From an uncultured Ardenticatenia bacterium (GTDB lineage Bacteria > Chloroflexota > Anaerolineae > 4572-78 > NAK82), in assembly GCA_937127125.1 (NCBI GenBank), contig CAKZLO010000011.1, positions 62,001 to 126,000 on the forward strand: a stretch of 64,000 nt of DNA, written 5' to 3'. A program made the translations under genes and the position numbers. Under the pieces are notes generated by a model. The model worked only from the letters and a program-made list of their open reading frames with translations, made no database searches and was not told the DNA's origin. Positions 18,215 through 24,999 of the stretch are shown here, piece by piece (position 1 is the stretch's first letter; every line of letters begins with the position of its first letter).

Positions 18215-18460
18215 TCACTCGCGGAAGAAGGTTTCGATCCGCGTTTGGTCCTCTTCAGAGGGAAACGCCTCGATGAAGTTGATGCGATGCCACGGGAACA
18301 TAAAACGTGTACAGCCAGGTTCGATAAAAACCAGATTCTTGCCGTCGCGCGCGCGAGGGTTAGTGCACAGAATATAATTGGCGTGGGGATCAGGTAGTTC
18401 ATCCATCTCAGCCATAATCGGATCGGTGCCTTGCAAGTGAATCAAAACTGTGAACGCCAT
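18215..18460 (-). CDS. Small conserved-looking protein, 81 residues
   Basis: A compact acidic protein with no membrane segment or signal peptide. Features: MAFTVLIHLQG start, DELPDPHANYILCTNPRARD in the middle, and FPWHRINFIEAFP near the end. The late part, with Trp-His-Arg, looks like a beta-strand protein that could bind metal or nucleic acid, but I do not recognise a family. It sits between the FHA gene and the phosphohexomutase, same strand, 35 bases after the FHA stop, so it is likely in the signalling operon. Confidence 0.65.
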   Translation of the reverse strand: MAFTVLIHLQGTDPIMAEMDELPDPHANYILCTNPRARDGKNLVFIEPGCTRFMFPWHRINFIEAFPSEEDQTRIETFFRE

Positions 18461-18495
18461 AGCACAATCTCCATCATCTGGAAGATCTTGCCCAT

Positions 18496-18978
18496 TCAGA
18501 GCACCTCAACTTGGAGAGATAGGCTGCCAATCTGAAGCTGATCGCCATCCCGAACGACTTCAGGCAGATAAGGGATCAGGCGTTTGCCATTTAGAAATGT
18601 ACCGTTAATGCTGGCAAGGTCCTCTATCATAACTATCCCTCGGCGCGACAAAAGGCGAGCATGGCGTCTCGACACGCCTTTCTCCAGAGCGCCGAAAGGA
18701 GCGAGATCTATTTCAGGAAACACCTGGCTGGTTGGATCAGAGCGTCCCACTACCAGTTTCTTGTCGACGGTGACCTCAATACCTTGGTCAGGTGCCTCGC
18801 TAACATATAAGCGCACAGTCGGGGGGTGTTCTTCCTGCTCCGTCAAGTCAGTCTGCTCTGCCACCCCAAGCTGGACCCCATCGGCGGTCCACTCCTCAGG
18901 GGGTAGCAACGTACCACACTCGCTACACACCAATGTGTTTGCAACAAACCGACTGTGGCAATTTGGACACTCAACCAT
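18496..18978 (-). CDS. Zinc-ribbon FHA domain protein
   Basis: A 160-residue protein with an N-terminal zinc ribbon (CPNC at 4-7, CSEC at 18-21), a charged linker, then an FHA domain: GRSDPTSQVFPEIDL, GVSRRHARLL and ASINGTFLNG. FHA domains bind phosphothreonine peptides, so it is a probable reader of the kinase encoded at 21494. Its start overlaps the end of the VWA gene by 8 bases. Cytoplasmic; no membrane segment. Confidence 0.9.
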   Translation of the reverse strand: MVECPNCHSRFVANTLVCSECGTLLPPEEWTADGVQLGVAEQTDLTEQEEHPPTVRLYVSEAPDQGIEVTVDKKLVVGRSDPTSQVFPEIDLAPFGALEKGVSRRHARLLSRRGIVMIEDLASINGTFLNGKRLIPYLPEVVRDGDQLQIGSLSLQVEVL

Positions 18979-20308
18979 GGTCTTTGCCTCGTGGATCTAA
19001 CGAGAGCGCCCGGGTGCCATAGTGGATCTTCTTGCGACCCTCAGGCGACAGTGCACCCGTGCGCGCCAATTGGCCTGCTTCCAACATGGCTGCACGAGCC
19101 AATTCTACCTCGCCGATTGCGGCTAGTCGGCTGGCCATTGCTTCCAACCGCTGGGTGGCAGCCTCTACCCGCCCCGCCTCCAGATCAGCAATTGCTCTCT
19201 CGTGCATCTTAAACAATACAACTCGCGTAAGGGCACGGGGAATCGCTGCCGGGATCCTGGCGCTTGAAATGCGCGGCGCGTCGGGATCAGTTAATGAAAT
19301 CCCCTCAACATTTAGCATGATCTCTTCAAAAAACGCCCCGTGTGCATTCACACCTTCCGGCGCTGCGAGTTCCACACCCACGGAAGCGATCAACCGGACA
19401 CCGGGCGTTAGATTGCGCACGCGAAATTCCATCAAGACTTCGCGATCGGAGACCTTGCTGAGCAACCCTAGTGCGACTGTGTAACCTTGGTCGGAGGCAA
19501 CAGCTTTCAGCCGCTGAATCTCAGGCTTGACCTGAAATATCTCTTGCAGAGCAACTGAAGGCCCAGGTGTGATATGCAATGTCGTCTGATTTGCAACCAC
19601 CCCGGATAGATGCTCGATAACTTGCTCGAACATCTGCACTACTTTACGTGGTGAATCAATGTAAACCGATCGCCCTCCAGACAGAGCAGCCACCTGATCG
19701 AGCAAAGTCTCATTCCAATCCTCCCCGATTCCCATCAAGCTCATGCTGATCCGGTTTTGACCCGCCCACTTGGCCATCTCCAGACAACCTTGTTCGTCAC
19801 CATACGTATGGCCGTCGGTCAAGAGGATCAGGTGATTGAGCGAGCCCTTGTTCTTGGAGCGCATTACCTCCCGAATGCCAGTTCCTAGGCCTTGCAACAG
19901 CTCTGTGCCCCCGGATGGCCGGATGGTGCTTATCATTGCCTTGACCCTGGCGCGATCTATGTTCCGCTGCGGCGGCACCAACACCTCTGCACGATCGTGA
20001 AACACCACCACACTTAGAGTGTCCTCAGGATAGAGACGGTCAATGATGCGTTGAATCGCCTCTTGCGCCGCCAGAATCCGAGCGCCGCTCATCGAGGTGC
20101 TACGATCCAGCACGACGCAAAGATTCAAGGGCATACGCTCGTGTGAAAGCTCACGCCGCAGTACTATGCTCAACAGCGCATAATATGCTTGTTCTTCTGA
20201 TCGCGCCGGCAGATACTCGTGACCCCTTATCGCGCGGAGGCAAAGCACAGATCCTTGTCGCTCGATAGGATGAGTTCCGAAATCGTCTCCCCTCAGGGTG
20301 TATGACAT
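18971..20308 (-). CDS. von Willebrand factor A domain protein
   Basis: About 445 residues from ATG 20308 (the open frame continues to a TTG at 20338 without good spacing). The VWA domain has a MIDAS metal site: LDRSTSMSG (DxSxS), a later Thr in PSGGTELLQG and LLTDGHTYGD. The N-terminal part resembles the YfbK/VIT-like bacterial VWA proteins; the C-terminus is helical and rich in Ala, Arg and Glu, perhaps a protein-interaction region. No signal peptide. It is followed by FHA and preceded by PP2C and kinase genes on the same strand, a grouping seen in bacterial phospho-signalling modules. Confidence 0.88.
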   Translation of the reverse strand: MSYTLRGDDFGTHPIERQGSVLCLRAIRGHEYLPARSEEQAYYALLSIVLRRELSHERMPLNLCVVLDRSTSMSGARILAAQEAIQRIIDRLYPEDTLSVVVFHDRAEVLVPPQRNIDRARVKAMISTIRPSGGTELLQGLGTGIREVMRSKNKGSLNHLILLTDGHTYGDEQGCLEMAKWAGQNRISMSLMGIGEDWNETLLDQVAALSGGRSVYIDSPRKVVQMFEQVIEHLSGVVANQTTLHITPGPSVALQEIFQVKPEIQRLKAVASDQGYTVALGLLSKVSDREVLMEFRVRNLTPGVRLIASVGVELAAPEGVNAHGAFFEEIMLNVEGISLTDPDAPRISSARIPAAIPRALTRVVLFKMHERAIADLEAGRVEAATQRLEAMASRLAAIGEVELARAAMLEAGQLARTGALSPEGRKKIHYGTRALSLDPRGKDHG

Positions 20309-20395
20309 ACTAACACCTATTCCGTTTCTCTCTGGCAACTCCCCCGTCTGCTTGGGAGCTAACTGTTTCCCCTAGCAACCGTCTCACCCGGGCTG

Positions 20396-20411
20396 CACCT
20401 GCAAGCAGGTG
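20396..20411. repeat. Inverted repeat CACCTGC-AA-GCAGGTG
   Basis: Seven-base arms separated by AA, in the 190-base gap between the PP2C stop and the VWA start. It could be an operator or a small hairpin in the polycistronic message. Confidence 0.35.
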
Positions 20412-20498
20412 AGGGAGATCAACCTCGCCCGATAATCGTACAGCCCAGCTTGCGCTGCCATTTCAGTGTCCCAGCCCCAAACAGAAAACCTCCTTGGA

Positions 20499-21389
20499 TC
20501 ATGCCTCGTTGCGCACAGCAAGGATCAACGTGACATTGTCGTCGCCACCACGCTCGTTAGCCAGAGCAATAAATTTGTCCACAGCAGCTTGCGCATTGGG
20601 TTCGTTCATCAGCACCTCTGCGATCTCTGCATCCGAAACCTTTGCCCATAAGCCATCGCTGCACAACAACAAACAGCTGCCATCGGGAAACGACTCGGTG
20701 TGTGTATCCACCTCTATCGTAGCCCTTTGACCCACCGCGCGGTACAAGATGTTGCGATGAGCTGAGGTTTCCTCAGGGATAGTCTGCCCAGTCTCGATCA
20801 ACCTGGCTGCAAGCGAGTGGTCATGGGTGATACGCCGCAAGCTACCCTTACCAAGCAAATAGGCCCGACTGTCGCCCACGTGGGCTATGTATACCCTCTG
20901 GCCGAGGATTAATGCCATTGTCAGCGTGGTGCCCGCCTGAGGAACATTGTGACGCACAACCGCATTAGCGGTTTCTACCGAGCGCACCAGCGTCTCGTGG
21001 AGAGCATAATGTTGAGTACCCGCTACTTCAGAGGAAAGGAAAGGCAACACGACATCCTGCATCACACGAACAGCTGCAGCACGCACCGCCAGCGCGCTTG
21101 CCATATCTCCACTTGTGTGTCCGCCCATCCCATCAGCCAAGAGCAATAGAGCAACATCTGTCTGATTGCCACTTGCTTCGTTGCTCAGACTAAGCGCCAT
21201 CCACGCATCTTCGTTATGTTCTCGCACACGTCCAATGTGGGAACCGCCGAAAATGGTCAATCCACGGGGTGCATTTCGCACAAGAGAAGGCTTCAATGTA
21301 TCCGACATTCCATGGGGGATTTTTCGATGAACTTGGATAGCATCATGTTCAACGTGAGGAGTGATAGCATCCGGAGAAGAGCCCATCAT
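20499..21389 (-). CDS. PP2C-family protein phosphatase (Stp/PphA-like)
   Basis: A 296-residue Mn/Mg-dependent Ser/Thr phosphatase. Motifs in order: RVREHNEDAW (metal Asp), LLADGMGGH, AGTTLTMALI, AHVGDSRAYLL, ITHDHS and CSDGLWAKV...GGDDNVTLIL. All metal-binding aspartates appear present. About 40 residues precede the domain. It probably reverses phosphorylation by the kinase encoded just upstream (21494-23449, 104-base gap, same strand). Start uncertain: there are two neighbouring ATGs and a third at codon 28. Confidence 0.92.
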   Translation of the reverse strand: MMGSSPDAITPHVEHDAIQVHRKIPHGMSDTLKPSLVRNAPRGLTIFGGSHIGRVREHNEDAWMALSLSNEASGNQTDVALLLLADGMGGHTSGDMASALAVRAAAVRVMQDVVLPFLSSEVAGTQHYALHETLVRSVETANAVVRHNVPQAGTTLTMALILGQRVYIAHVGDSRAYLLGKGSLRRITHDHSLAARLIETGQTIPEETSAHRNILYRAVGQRATIEVDTHTESFPDGSCLLLCSDGLWAKVSDAEIAEVLMNEPNAQAAVDKFIALANERGGDDNVTLILAVRNEA

Positions 21390-21493
21390 ATTAGAAGACC
21401 TCTAAACCGTGCCTCGGACAGGTACTCGTAAGACCACGCTGAAGAACAAGGGATGAGATAGTAATGATACTGGCCCTCGCACTGAACAGCAGC

Positions 21494-23449
21494 TCAAGCA
21501 GGAAGCGCGTAAACGTGATGATCGTTGGATCCCATGTAGACAGTCGCATCGCACACACATGGTGACGAGGGAACAGGTCCTCCCGTGCTGAAGCGCCATC
21601 GTTCTTTGCCTGTCTTTCGATCTATGCTGATAATGTCCCCACCCAGAGTGCTAACATATACACCCTGTTCTGTCACAGCTGGTGTAGAGACAACCTGGCT
21701 CCCAGTGTTGAACTTCCATATCAGACGACCATTGCCAAGCTCCAACGCATAGAGGTAGCCATCCGCTGAACCAATGTACACCACCCCATCCAAAGCTCGG
21801 GGTGAACCAACCACTACATGGCCGGCACGGAAGCGCCACACAGACCAGCCAGAGCGTTCATCCAACGCGTAGACGTTCCAATCCATCGATCCGAAGATGA
21901 CCAGGCCATCGCACAAGAGCGGACTAGAAATGACATTGCGATTTGTGCGAAATTTCCAGCGTTGACGACCTGTCTGCAGGTCGATAGCGTACAAGTGATA
22001 ATCTTCACTACCGACGTATACCATCTCATCCCCTATCGCCGGCGAAGAACGGATCGCTTCAAGCGCCTCAAACTGCCATACCACCTGACCATTGTTGGCG
22101 TTTACTGCATAAAGACGTCGGTCGTCAGAGCCAAAAAAGGCATGTTCCAGCTCCACCCGAGCTGAGGAACGGATGCGCCCCCCTGTAGGACAAGTCCACA
22201 GAATACGCCCGGTACGTACTGAAACGGCATAGAAGAAACGATCTTCGGAACCAAACAGGACACGATCTTTCCAGATGCATGGAGTGGCTGCGATGCCACC
22301 TTCAGTGGCATATTTCCAGAGAAACTTCCCTGTCTTCGCATCTAAAGCATACAAGTTGTGATCGTAGCATCCCACATATAGGACTCCGTCCACGACCACC
22401 GGGGAAGAACGCACCTCATCCTCACAGCGGAATCGCCATATGGGCATAATGCCCTGTTCCATCGCAACAGGTGCCTCGCGGCCAGCCTGCACTTGGCTGG
22501 AGCTCGCCACCGTTTCTGAATGATCACTCACGGATGCGGGAGCACGGACGGGAACCGAGCTTGGCGCTAGAGTCTCAGAAACGACACAACAGCGTAGCAA
22601 GGCTTCCTTCATTTCCTCAGCACTGGCATAGCGCGCTGTCGGGTCATATTCCAGTGCTTTCATAATTGCAGCTTCCAGATCCTTGGATACCGAAGGATTC
22701 ACGCGGCTGGGCAGCTCTTCAGCAAAGCTGAACGGCGGGTGCAAGCGTGGATCACGACACGTGAGCAAGTGATGCATAGTGGCACCCAATGCATATATGT
22801 CTCCCTGCGGGCTGGCGACGCCCCGGTACTGTTCGGGCGGAGAATATCCTTCTGTACCGATCATAGTGCCCTTGCTGCCCACATTGATGGTTCGCGCGAT
22901 GCCAAAATCAACCAGCGCAACACGGTTCGAAGGACGTACCATAATGTTGGAAGGCTTCAGGTCGCGAAACACAATGGGGGGATCATGGTGATGAAGATAG
23001 GTCAGCACATCGCATATCTGAACCGCCCAATCCACGACGCGCTCGGCTGGTAGTGGGGTGCGGACCGCTCGTAGTACCGCCTCAAGATCCATCCCCTCCA
23101 CAAACTCCAATACAAGATAATAGCGATCTTCTTGTGTGAAGTAATCATGGATCTTGGGGATGGAGGGATGGCTTAGCGTGGCAAGGATATTTGCTTCTCG
23201 TTCGAAAATCTGAGCGGCGAGGCGACGTTTGGAAAGATCATTCGTGTTGATGATCATTTCCTTCAAAGCACACAAACGCTGAGCAGCTTGGAAGTGCTTG
23301 TCACGCACTTGGTAGACTGCCCCCATACCCCCCAAGCCAATCACCTTTATGATCTGGTAACGTCCTTGCAGAACGGTACCCAGTGGCAAGGTGTTGTTTG
23401 CCAACTTGCCTCGCTCGTTTTGCTCGGATTGCAGCTTGAGGGTCTCCAT
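21494..23449 (-). CDS. Ser/Thr protein kinase with C-terminal PQQ-like beta-propeller
   Basis: A 651-residue kinase. The Hanks domain is at about 30-290: Gly loop GLGGMG (38-43), Lys63 in ALKEM, FRD-LKPSN with catalytic Asp163 (Phe replaces the usual His), DFG at 181-183 and GTEGYSPPEQY. A Ser/Ala/Pro linker (about 290-345) leads into eight tandem PQQ/WD-like blades of about 40 residues, each with a GS-D--LYAL core and a G---W-F turn. No membrane helix separates the parts, so the propeller is cytosolic, probably a target- or ligand-binding module. It has its own promoter (23493-23521) and heads the kinase-PP2C-VWA-FHA cluster. Confidence 0.92.
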   Translation of the reverse strand: METLKLQSEQNERGKLANNTLPLGTVLQGRYQIIKVIGLGGMGAVYQVRDKHFQAAQRLCALKEMIINTNDLSKRRLAAQIFEREANILATLSHPSIPKIHDYFTQEDRYYLVLEFVEGMDLEAVLRAVRTPLPAERVVDWAVQICDVLTYLHHHDPPIVFRDLKPSNIMVRPSNRVALVDFGIARTINVGSKGTMIGTEGYSPPEQYRGVASPQGDIYALGATMHHLLTCRDPRLHPPFSFAEELPSRVNPSVSKDLEAAIMKALEYDPTARYASAEEMKEALLRCCVVSETLAPSSVPVRAPASVSDHSETVASSSQVQAGREAPVAMEQGIMPIWRFRCEDEVRSSPVVVDGVLYVGCYDHNLYALDAKTGKFLWKYATEGGIAATPCIWKDRVLFGSEDRFFYAVSVRTGRILWTCPTGGRIRSSARVELEHAFFGSDDRRLYAVNANNGQVVWQFEALEAIRSSPAIGDEMVYVGSEDYHLYAIDLQTGRQRWKFRTNRNVISSPLLCDGLVIFGSMDWNVYALDERSGWSVWRFRAGHVVVGSPRALDGVVYIGSADGYLYALELGNGRLIWKFNTGSQVVSTPAVTEQGVYVSTLGGDIISIDRKTGKERWRFSTGGPVPSSPCVCDATVYMGSNDHHVYALPA

Positions 23450-23492: not shown

Positions 23493-23521
23493 ATTATACT
23501 ATCACCCTTTGAGTGCGTCAA
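23493..23521 (-). promoter_or_regulatory. Sigma70-like promoter of the kinase gene
   Basis: On the minus strand, TTGACG (23521-23516), a 17-base spacer and consensus TATAAT (23498-23493). Predicted leader about 37 bases to the ATG at 23449. Confidence 0.75.
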
Positions 23522-23910: not shown

Positions 23911-24999
23911 ATGGACAAGAATTTAGAAGGACGCCGGAAGGCGCTGGAAATTGTGTTAGGTAATCTGCACAAGCGCTTTGGTGACGGGGCGATTATGAAG
24001 CTGGGCGAAAGGCCTCACACAGTAGTAGAAGTAATCCCCACTGGATCGCTTTCGTTGGACATCGCGTTGGGAGTAGGGGGTATACCACGAGGGCGTATTA
24101 CAGAGATATACGGACCAGAAGCCTCGGGCAAGACCACCCTTTGCCAGCATATCATTGCTGAGGCACAGAAGCGCGGCGGCAACGCAGTATTTATCGACGT
24201 GGAACATGCCTTCGATCCGGCTTACGCAGCGCGCTGCGGGGTGGATGTGAACAACCTGTACATTGCGCAACCGGATACAGGGGAGCAAGCGCTGGAGATC
24301 GCTGAGGCATTAGTGCGCAGTAATGCCATTGATGTCGTGGTGGTGGACTCAGTTGCCGCACTAGTACCACGGGCGGAAATAGAAGGCGAGATGGGCGATG
24401 CCCATGTGGGCTTACAGGCGCGTCTGATGAGCCAGGCGCTGCGCAAGTTGGCAGGCGCGGTGAAACAAAGCAACACTGCTTTCATCTTCACCAATCAGCT
24501 GCGCCAAAAGATTGGGGTGATGTTCGGCAACCCAGAGACCACAACAGGGGGCATGGCGTTGCGTTTCTATGCCTCTGTGCGATTAGATATGCGGCGCGTA
24601 GAAGCAATCAAGGATGGCAACGAGATCATCGGCAATCGCACACGCGTGACGGTGACTAAGAACAAAGTAGCACCCCCATTCCGCAAGGCCGAGTTTGATA
24701 TTATGTATAATGAGGGCATTTCGAAGGCTGGTGACGTGCTGGACATTGCAGTGGCACAGAACATCGTAGAAAAGCGGGGCGCGTTTTACCTTTATGGTGA
24801 AACACGCTTAGGGCAAGGACGTGAAAATGCCAAGCAATTCCTGCGCGAAAACCCACAATTGATGACAGAACTTGAGGAGCAAATTCGGCGAGCACTGGAC
24901 ATCGGCAGTGTGGCAAGCATGGGCTTTATGATCGGAGGCGCGACCTCTCTCGACGAGGACAATGAGCACCCCGAAGAAACGGCTGAAGCAGATCTGTGA
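23911..24999 (+). CDS. recA: Recombinase A
   Basis: A 362-residue RecA, the ATP-dependent strand-exchange protein for homologous recombination and SOS induction. Walker A is GPEASGKTT (68-76; the usual second Ser is Ala), Walker B is [12 protein letters not shown], and loop L2 is [17 protein letters not shown]. The C-terminus is short and acidic, as is common. AGAAGGAG at 23894 supports the start (9-base spacing). It lies behind a dyad operator, and the acetyltransferase gene begins 3 bases after its stop, so the two form an operon. Confidence 0.98.

Follow-up and report, generated by a model that had tools for sequence, protein, structure and literature searches.

The TerY-P triad is reportedly one set of genes that combines a kinase with a PP2C phosphatase and a vWA protein. 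Excerpts of the description of the GAP1-N2 systems present another, in which an active kinase, a PP2C and standalone vWA genes adjoin each other (PMC7159879). In AfsK of Streptomyces, which according to parts of its description is membrane associated and acts on AfsR (PMC1262709), an N-terminal kinase is followed by a C-terminal PQQ-like propeller. FHA domains often read the residue at +3, and in GarA, OdhI and DgcB they bind the tail of the same protein, as stated in sections of a published account (PMC6733907); OdhI and GarA use the motif ETTS, and what recruits them is a disordered segment of the kinase PknG that has undergone autophosphorylation, as given in extracts of a second account (PMC8546545). 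The module described here bears likenesses to all of these and consists of five genes, for a kinase-propeller protein, a PP2C phosphatase, a VWA protein, a zinc-ribbon FHA protein and an 81-residue protein (ORF81). They occupy positions 18215-23449 on the minus strand of the window, meaning the whole stretch of 64,000 nucleotides that was analysed, which lies on contig C11 of the 3.7-Mb genome (G000) of an uncultured Ardenticatenia bacterium. The module is read, with about as much confidence as doubt, as a vertically inherited cytosolic Ser/Thr phospho-signalling operon with a kinase-FHA switch.

The module kinase shares the domain order of AfsK, whose model NF053615 is its top NCBIfam match (223.7 bits against a cut-off of 1300), and differs from it in being cytosolic and in belonging to a set with PP2C, VWA, FHA and ORF81. 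Adjacent kinase, PP2C and vWA genes are shared with the GAP1-N2 sets, and the residues of the module proteins would fit activity. In contrast to GAP1-N2 and TerY-P, the zinc ribbon is carried by the FHA protein (there is none among the Pfam matches of the kinase), the kinase has a propeller and ORF81 is present. The 24 kb of the window included in a search for a Ras-like GTPase give no match at E<=1e-10. The likeness to GarA/OdhI and PknG lies in a small FHA protein, preceded in many relatives by a Thr motif, and in a kinase with a disordered segment, whereas the module adaptor has an N-terminal zinc ribbon, and its window copy lacks the exact motif and reaches 32 bits with the OdhI model NF041660, whose cut-off is 200. 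ORF81 resembles Hfq, Sm and LSm proteins in its predicted five-strand barrel with a short helical turn ahead of strand 5, and departs from them in its lack of detected sequence homology, its acidity and a model without the N-terminal helix. The module is placed among kinase/PP2C/vWA/FHA-type sets, with ORF81 as a new constant member and with a predicted FHA self-switch. No title or abstract opening found in the open-access literature describes this gene set in Chloroflexota.

Conservation of the module

ORF81 occurs in 84 of 199 genomes of the class and in 131 of 400 genomes of the phylum, with one match per genome. For the class, 80 of the 84 matches were fetched in addition to the window (G190, G009 and G186 were left out), and 40 of the 95 phylum matches outside the class were fetched, picked to cover families. 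These provided 165 loci for scanning, of which one (L227) was dropped for lack of an anchor, and merging of identical ORF81 cores left 148 distinct loci. Genes were called from six-frame open reading frames (ORFs) and purpose-built hidden Markov models (HMMs); starts and gaps are approximate, and many of the relatives are metagenome-assembled. Anaerolineae and Chloroflexales are represented among the carriers, and the full set is present in Chloroflexus islandicus (L174).

With either strand and either side allowed, all five genes are found in 87 of the 148 distinct loci, and in every one of the 87 they stand in the same order on a single strand, with median intergenic gaps of 25, 7, -4 and 20 bp. 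The proposal of a first-pass annotation that the genes form one module is strongly supported by these loci: the scattering in relatives that it named as contrary evidence is not seen in the 87, and three families have the genes split in two blocks. Upstream sequence of 6 kb or more is available for 113 distinct loci, and among these a kinase-propeller gene is present in 97 and an FHA gene in 95. The kinase-propeller, PP2C, VWA and FHA genes occur together in 80 of them, and a further six have this set without PP2C; the remainder have kinase and PP2C only (three), kinase only (eight), FHA only (nine) or none (seven). Of the 47 class genomes with a strong kinase match (E<=1e-130), 46 have ORF81; G012, the one that does not, has its contig end right after the kinase and PP2C genes. 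Preservation of the order in distant Chloroflexota indicates, on sequence grounds, that the five genes probably form one protein-phosphorylation switch, and the retention of such an ordered phospho-switch in far-apart families of a phylum that is abundant but little studied suggests that its function is a core one.

The split form consists of 11 loci in families f63, f87 and f89, where FHA and ORF81 make up one block without a kinase nearby, and kinase and PP2C, with or without VWA, make up the other. Ten of the 11 genomes have a kinase-propeller gene at another place (33-53% identity, one partial at a contig start). The nine such kinase loci that were fetched all have PP2C downstream, five have VWA, and three of the PP2C ORFs match the kinase HMM too.

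A rather unlikely alternative holds that the module is a generic housekeeping kinase/phosphatase cluster, in which ORF81 and FHA are co-transcribed but functionally loose and the order is kept by vertical descent alone. The domains are ordinary, and the sole search not confined to the phylum, made with two strict peptide patterns, returned 44 loci that are all Chloroflexota by title. Also consistent with this alternative are 20 VWA-anchored loci of the class, which are kinase/FHA/PP2C/VWA clusters with ORF81 in none and with no kinase-propeller ORF in 18; the other two are L244, where 8.8 kb separate such an ORF from the VWA gene, and L258, which is a module cut by a contig end. Against it, five other neighbours in the window that were tested are shared at most with a sister genome among 81 loci (a GNAT gene and recA in the window only; PMM, DUF5656 and NAPRT in the window and the sister genome only), while the module genes persist. 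In addition, ORF81 stays with the kinase alone or with FHA alone where the other genes are gone, and in split genomes the remaining module genes are present as a second block.

Clusters of kinase, PP2C, VWA and FHA genes without ORF81 are seen at L239-L257, and in some of them as many as six ORFs within about 19 kb match the kinase.

Kinase, phosphatase and VWA proteins

The kinase gene (21494-23449, minus strand) encodes 651 residues, with a Pkinase match at residues 31-278 in Pfam/NCBIfam. A Hanks kinase domain at about residues 26-290 is followed by a disordered linker at 293-331 (pLDDT below 50) and a PQQ/BamB-like propeller at 338-651. The eight PQQ-like blades of the first-pass annotation are borne out by Trp residues 338, 378, 418, 458, 498, 538, 578 and 618, which are spaced by exactly 40 residues and are all invariant in 60 of 60 aligned sequences, the window included. 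In the AlphaFold2 model (pLDDT 89, about 98 in the propeller) the propeller superposes in Foldseek on the designed eight-blade protein Cake8 at 1.1 A over 326 columns, and its natural look-alikes are BamB and YxaL. The N-terminal strand at 338-341 appears, from the strand list of the model, to close the eighth blade. The placement of the kinase domain relative to the propeller is uncertain because the pTM is 0.55. As had been claimed, hydropathy gives no membrane helix in the kinase: its 19-residue maximum is 1.23, located in the propeller, and the threshold of 1.6 is exceeded in 4 of 108 related kinases.

Counts of retained residues omit short proteins (3 of 111 kinases, 3 of 103 PP2C, 2 of 112 VWA and 7 of 125 FHA proteins). 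The catalytic Lys, Glu, Asp and Asn and the DFG Asp are retained in 106-108 of 108 aligned module kinases, and the activation-loop residues T195 and T199 in 106 and 108, respectively; with its catalytic residues near-invariant, the kinase should be active. The replacement of His by Phe in the HRD motif, also singled out earlier, is real and carries no special meaning. It was rejected as the mark of a dead or odd kinase, since 104 of the 108 module kinases have Phe there and the other 4 have Tyr, which makes it a subfamily trait. An aromatic residue at this position is also usual in AGC kinases. Of the other six kinases in the genome, five have His there, and no such motif could be located in the remaining one. 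A separate kinase of the same genome (L001, G000:C4) reads VHGDLKP, with the Arg of HRD changed to Gly.

The PP2C gene (20499-21389, minus strand) encodes a Stp1-type phosphatase that scores 56.5 bits against Pfam PP2C (cut-off 20.3) and 201 bits against NCBIfam NF033484, under its cut-off of 230. The VWA gene (18971-20308, minus strand; Pfam VWA_3, 8.3e-18) is open from a TTG at 20338, with the ATG at 20308 as the likelier start, and encodes an intact MIDAS. Five metal-binding Asp positions are retained in all 100 PP2C proteins, a sixth position that was checked being variable, and five MIDAS residues in all 110 VWA proteins; the roles of these residues are those usual in the two families.

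Matches of the kinase domain to the PADLOC models of PD-T4-6 and mad6 (best 213 bits) and a weak match of PP2C to PDC-M21C (52 bits) raise a PD-T4-6-like anti-phage defence kinase system as an explanation, which is judged highly improbable. In the 25 of 34 kinase rows listed, the best PADLOC stretch falls within residues 11-327, which is the kinase domain in general, and leaves the propeller uncovered; VWA, FHA and ORF81 have no PADLOC match. Moreover, one ORF81 per genome and a phylum-wide fixed order are unlike defence genes. Phage records contain no match to ORF81.

FHA adaptor and proposed switch

The FHA gene (18496-18978, minus strand) starts over the stop of the VWA gene, with an overlap of 8 nt, and encodes a C4 zinc ribbon, a linker and an FHA domain (Pfam FHA, 3.6e-14). 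Together with the kinase, PP2C and VWA genes it completes the set that the first-pass annotation had placed in one direction, and all four are present on the minus strand. Among 118 FHA proteins of at least 130 residues, the zinc Cys are retained in 117, and R79, S103, H106 and N125, which are taken to be the residues of the phospho-Thr (pThr) pocket, in all 118. Adaptors without the zinc ribbon number five, all in family f63 (L203, which is one of the 118, and four shorter proteins).

A Thr-x-x-[LIVFM] motif located 9-13 residues past the last ribbon Cys occurs in 86 of 117 FHA proteins, against a shuffle mean of 11.4 and a maximum of 21; examples from relatives are RGTDPL, LRTEPL, LTTQNI and RQTTASL. 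The shuffle tests are not corrected for common descent, which is handled only in part by the fairer test on 44 representatives below 55% identity, of which 22 have the motif (shuffle mean 4.3, maximum 10 in 500 shuffles). The motif is also associated with the phosphatase: in kinase-bearing loci PP2C is present and absent in 73 and 3 cases with the motif and in 15 and 6 without it (p 0.003), and the corresponding numbers among representatives are 20 and 0 versus 11 and 4 (p 0.026). By analogy with GarA and OdhI, the linker Thr and the FHA domain are predicted to form a self-switch in many relatives.

The five genes, their fixed order and the intact catalytic and binding residues are read from sequence, and the following mechanism is what we infer from them. 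The kinase would autophosphorylate and then phosphorylate the linker Thr of the zinc-ribbon FHA adaptor. The FHA domain would bind this pThr, its own or that of a neighbouring molecule, or a pThr on the disordered linker of the kinase. Binding would switch the partners of the adaptor in the manner of GarA and OdhI, and PP2C would reset the system. The propeller may serve as a docking platform, and it is plausible that it recognises the target, while the VWA domain could bind a further peptide through its metal site. The ORF81 barrel may be an obligatory subunit linking the kinase to the adaptor or carrying the output, which in part of the phylum would probably be an adjoining OmpR-type response regulator.

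Several observations weigh against this phospho-signalling interpretation. The linker of the window's own FHA protein is degenerate (WTADG, EQTDLTE) and has no canonical Thr motif, and the motif, whose definition was chosen after inspecting sequences, is missing in 31 of 117 FHA proteins. Of the 11 split-form adaptors, six were checked and lack the motif, and the five from f63 lack the zinc ribbon. The response regulator is not found adjoining the module in 93 of 135 loci. Finally, family f74 has an ORF81-like protein and no kinase-propeller match (E<=1e-50) in seven of seven genomes, and ORF81 can therefore act without the kinase-propeller protein.

As a whole, the module offers a compact set for reconstitution, comprising a kinase, a phosphatase, an adaptor with a predicted phospho-Thr switch, the putative ORF81 barrel and the candidate target that adjoins the module in some of the phylum. 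It also provides a handle on the wiring of soluble propeller kinases of AfsK-like architecture.

ORF81

The small gene that had been said to follow the others does so, as the 81-residue orphan ORF81 at 18215-18460 on the minus strand, 3' of the FHA gene and just beyond the coordinates of that annotation (18496-23449). It is the most constant member of the module, found with the kinase alone in some families and with FHA in others. The kinase accompanies ORF81 less strictly: besides f74, G074 has ORF81 alone. A protein 98% identical to it is encoded in L148, an assembly titled Ardenticatenia bacterium. Between the window and its sister genome, the nonsynonymous divergence (dN) of ORF81 is 0.011, the lowest of eight genes (kinase and DUF5656 0.10, VWA 0.18, FHA 0.19, PP2C 0.23, PMM/NAPRT 0.055-0.059), while fourfold sites are similarly diverged across the compared genes (18 of 30 differ in ORF81); synonymous divergence (dS) is saturated for VWA and ORF81 and hence has no value for these two. 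Over wider distances the identity of ORF81 is not exceptional, with median identities to the window across 94 loci, some from duplicate genomes, of 51.5% for the kinase, 45% for ORF81, 42% for PP2C, 40% for FHA and 37.5% for VWA. Its best-conserved residues are H8, P23, R36, D39, G40, P56, R59, E64, F78 and R80.

The ORF81 family is absent from Pfam and NCBIfam: the window protein matches no family in either, and 27 members give scattered matches at chance level alone. One such family, MJ1316/DUF504, was rejected as the family of ORF81, with 5 of the 27 members matching at a best E of 0.038; it has no match over its cut-off in 41 class genomes, and its match in G010 (E 0.17) lies inside the ORF81 of that genome.

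The structural model of ORF81 (pLDDT 85.9, pTM 0.70) contains five strands, the last preceded by a short helical turn, and the protein is predicted to be a small Sm/LSm-like barrel. VIA-align, applied to the Foldseek candidates, gives a best Z of 7.7 and a Z of 6.5 at rank 50, values below 8 that may represent merely a common arrangement. Among the 50 entries listed, all rows that name a molecule are Sm/LSm-type, Gemin or Edc3, and the remaining ones are snRNP or spliceosome chains, judged to be Sm/LSm by their length, and TIP60, which is presumably built on the Sm-like protein 3by7. Similarly, 48 of the 50 rows listed by Foldseek against the Protein Data Bank (PDB) are Sm/LSm-type, as judged partly from titles, with probabilities up to 1.00, the non-Sm entries by title being 2rd1 and 2rb6; there is no match at E<=0.001 in this search, and the best E is 0.016. 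Foldseek against viral models returns small-barrel matches with a best E of 0.011, and two of the 50 rows listed are named Sm-like.

Dominance of the fold lists by Sm/LSm-type chains suggests a further explanation, in which ORF81 would be an Sm-type RNA/DNA-binding barrel and the module a phospho-controlled regulator of nucleic acids run by the kinase set. This is considered distinctly unlikely. In its favour, Hfq is missing from nearly all genomes sampled in the phylum, with matches in 3 of 151 and in none of the 123 of good quality, and the ORF81 gene lies 5' of topA in f74 and 3' of a recN-type gene in six loci of another group. Against it, ORF81 is acidic, with a median net charge of -6 (n=108), which makes plain RNA binding less likely, and the Foldseek E-values and VIA-align Z-scores are limited as given above. 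The 27 members have no match to the Hfq or LSM families of Pfam, and homology to Hfq was rejected with an hhalign probability of 0.4% against a four-row Hfq alignment. The model also opens with a strand, whereas Sm proteins start with an N-terminal helix. The more specific proposal that ORF81 is a phylum-specific Sm-like ring standing in for Hfq, whose RNA or DNA binding would be gated by the kinase-propeller/PP2C/FHA switch, is regarded as a long shot; if true, it would represent a phosphorylation-controlled Sm protein in bacteria.

Plasmids were also searched for Hfq, with no match. FlgV has reportedly been called an Hfq homologue. It was rejected as a relative of ORF81, having two membrane helices according to excerpts of its description (PMC11607428).

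In family f74 the ORF81-like gene lies 5' of a topA-type gene in 10 of 10 loci (L206, L215-L217, L233-L238). The protein often has a longer frame, with a EIDEDFLRRIRE-like tail in several cases, and at L234, the sole f74 locus put through Pfam, dprA is located two genes upstream. At L209, L210 and L222-L225, NAD-kinase-type and recN-type genes lie 5' of FHA and ORF81, with Pfam applied to L209 only.

Candidate target and genomic surroundings

The target of the module, given as unknown in the first-pass annotation, is no longer wholly open. An OmpR/PhoB-type response regulator lies directly 3' of ORF81 on the same strand in 42 of the 135 distinct loci for which 1.2 kb or more of sequence is available in that direction, and it is a candidate target. 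Ser/Thr kinases phosphorylate OmpR-type regulators, including the orphan RitR in vitro, according to portions of a published account (PMC4601284). The ORF starts of nine neighbourhoods, inspected by eye, include no histidine kinase beside the regulator, and the label 'orphan' is provisional because no histidine-kinase profile was run. The likely orthologue in the genome of the window is G000:C5:23257-23946, which is 77% identical (the next best are 44-49%) and by eye has no obvious histidine kinase adjoining it. A Ras-like GTPase is found near the regulator in a dozen relatives.

Upstream of the kinase gene, a promoter-like site (TTGACG-17-TATAAT, 23493-23521, minus strand) matches 11 of 12 consensus positions and lies 43 nt 5' of the ATG. 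Such sites, which are consensus matches only, number 4 in the stretch versus 6.0 by chance, and a terminator scan finds 3 versus 6.0; because both counts are below chance, the grounds for taking the genes as an operon are their spacing and conservation. The 190-nt gap between the PP2C and VWA genes was considered as the site of a structured RNA, which was rejected (z -0.64), and the sole match to Rfam at gathering thresholds in the whole window is a tRNA. The recA gene (23911-24999) is divergent to the kinase gene and was rejected as part of the module, being present in the window alone among the 81 loci. At L070, L071, L150, L151, L157 and L158 the module is followed by an FHA gene in antisense orientation and by another kinase, and in the first four of these a CxxC-bearing protein, presumably CpXC-like, is encoded in between.

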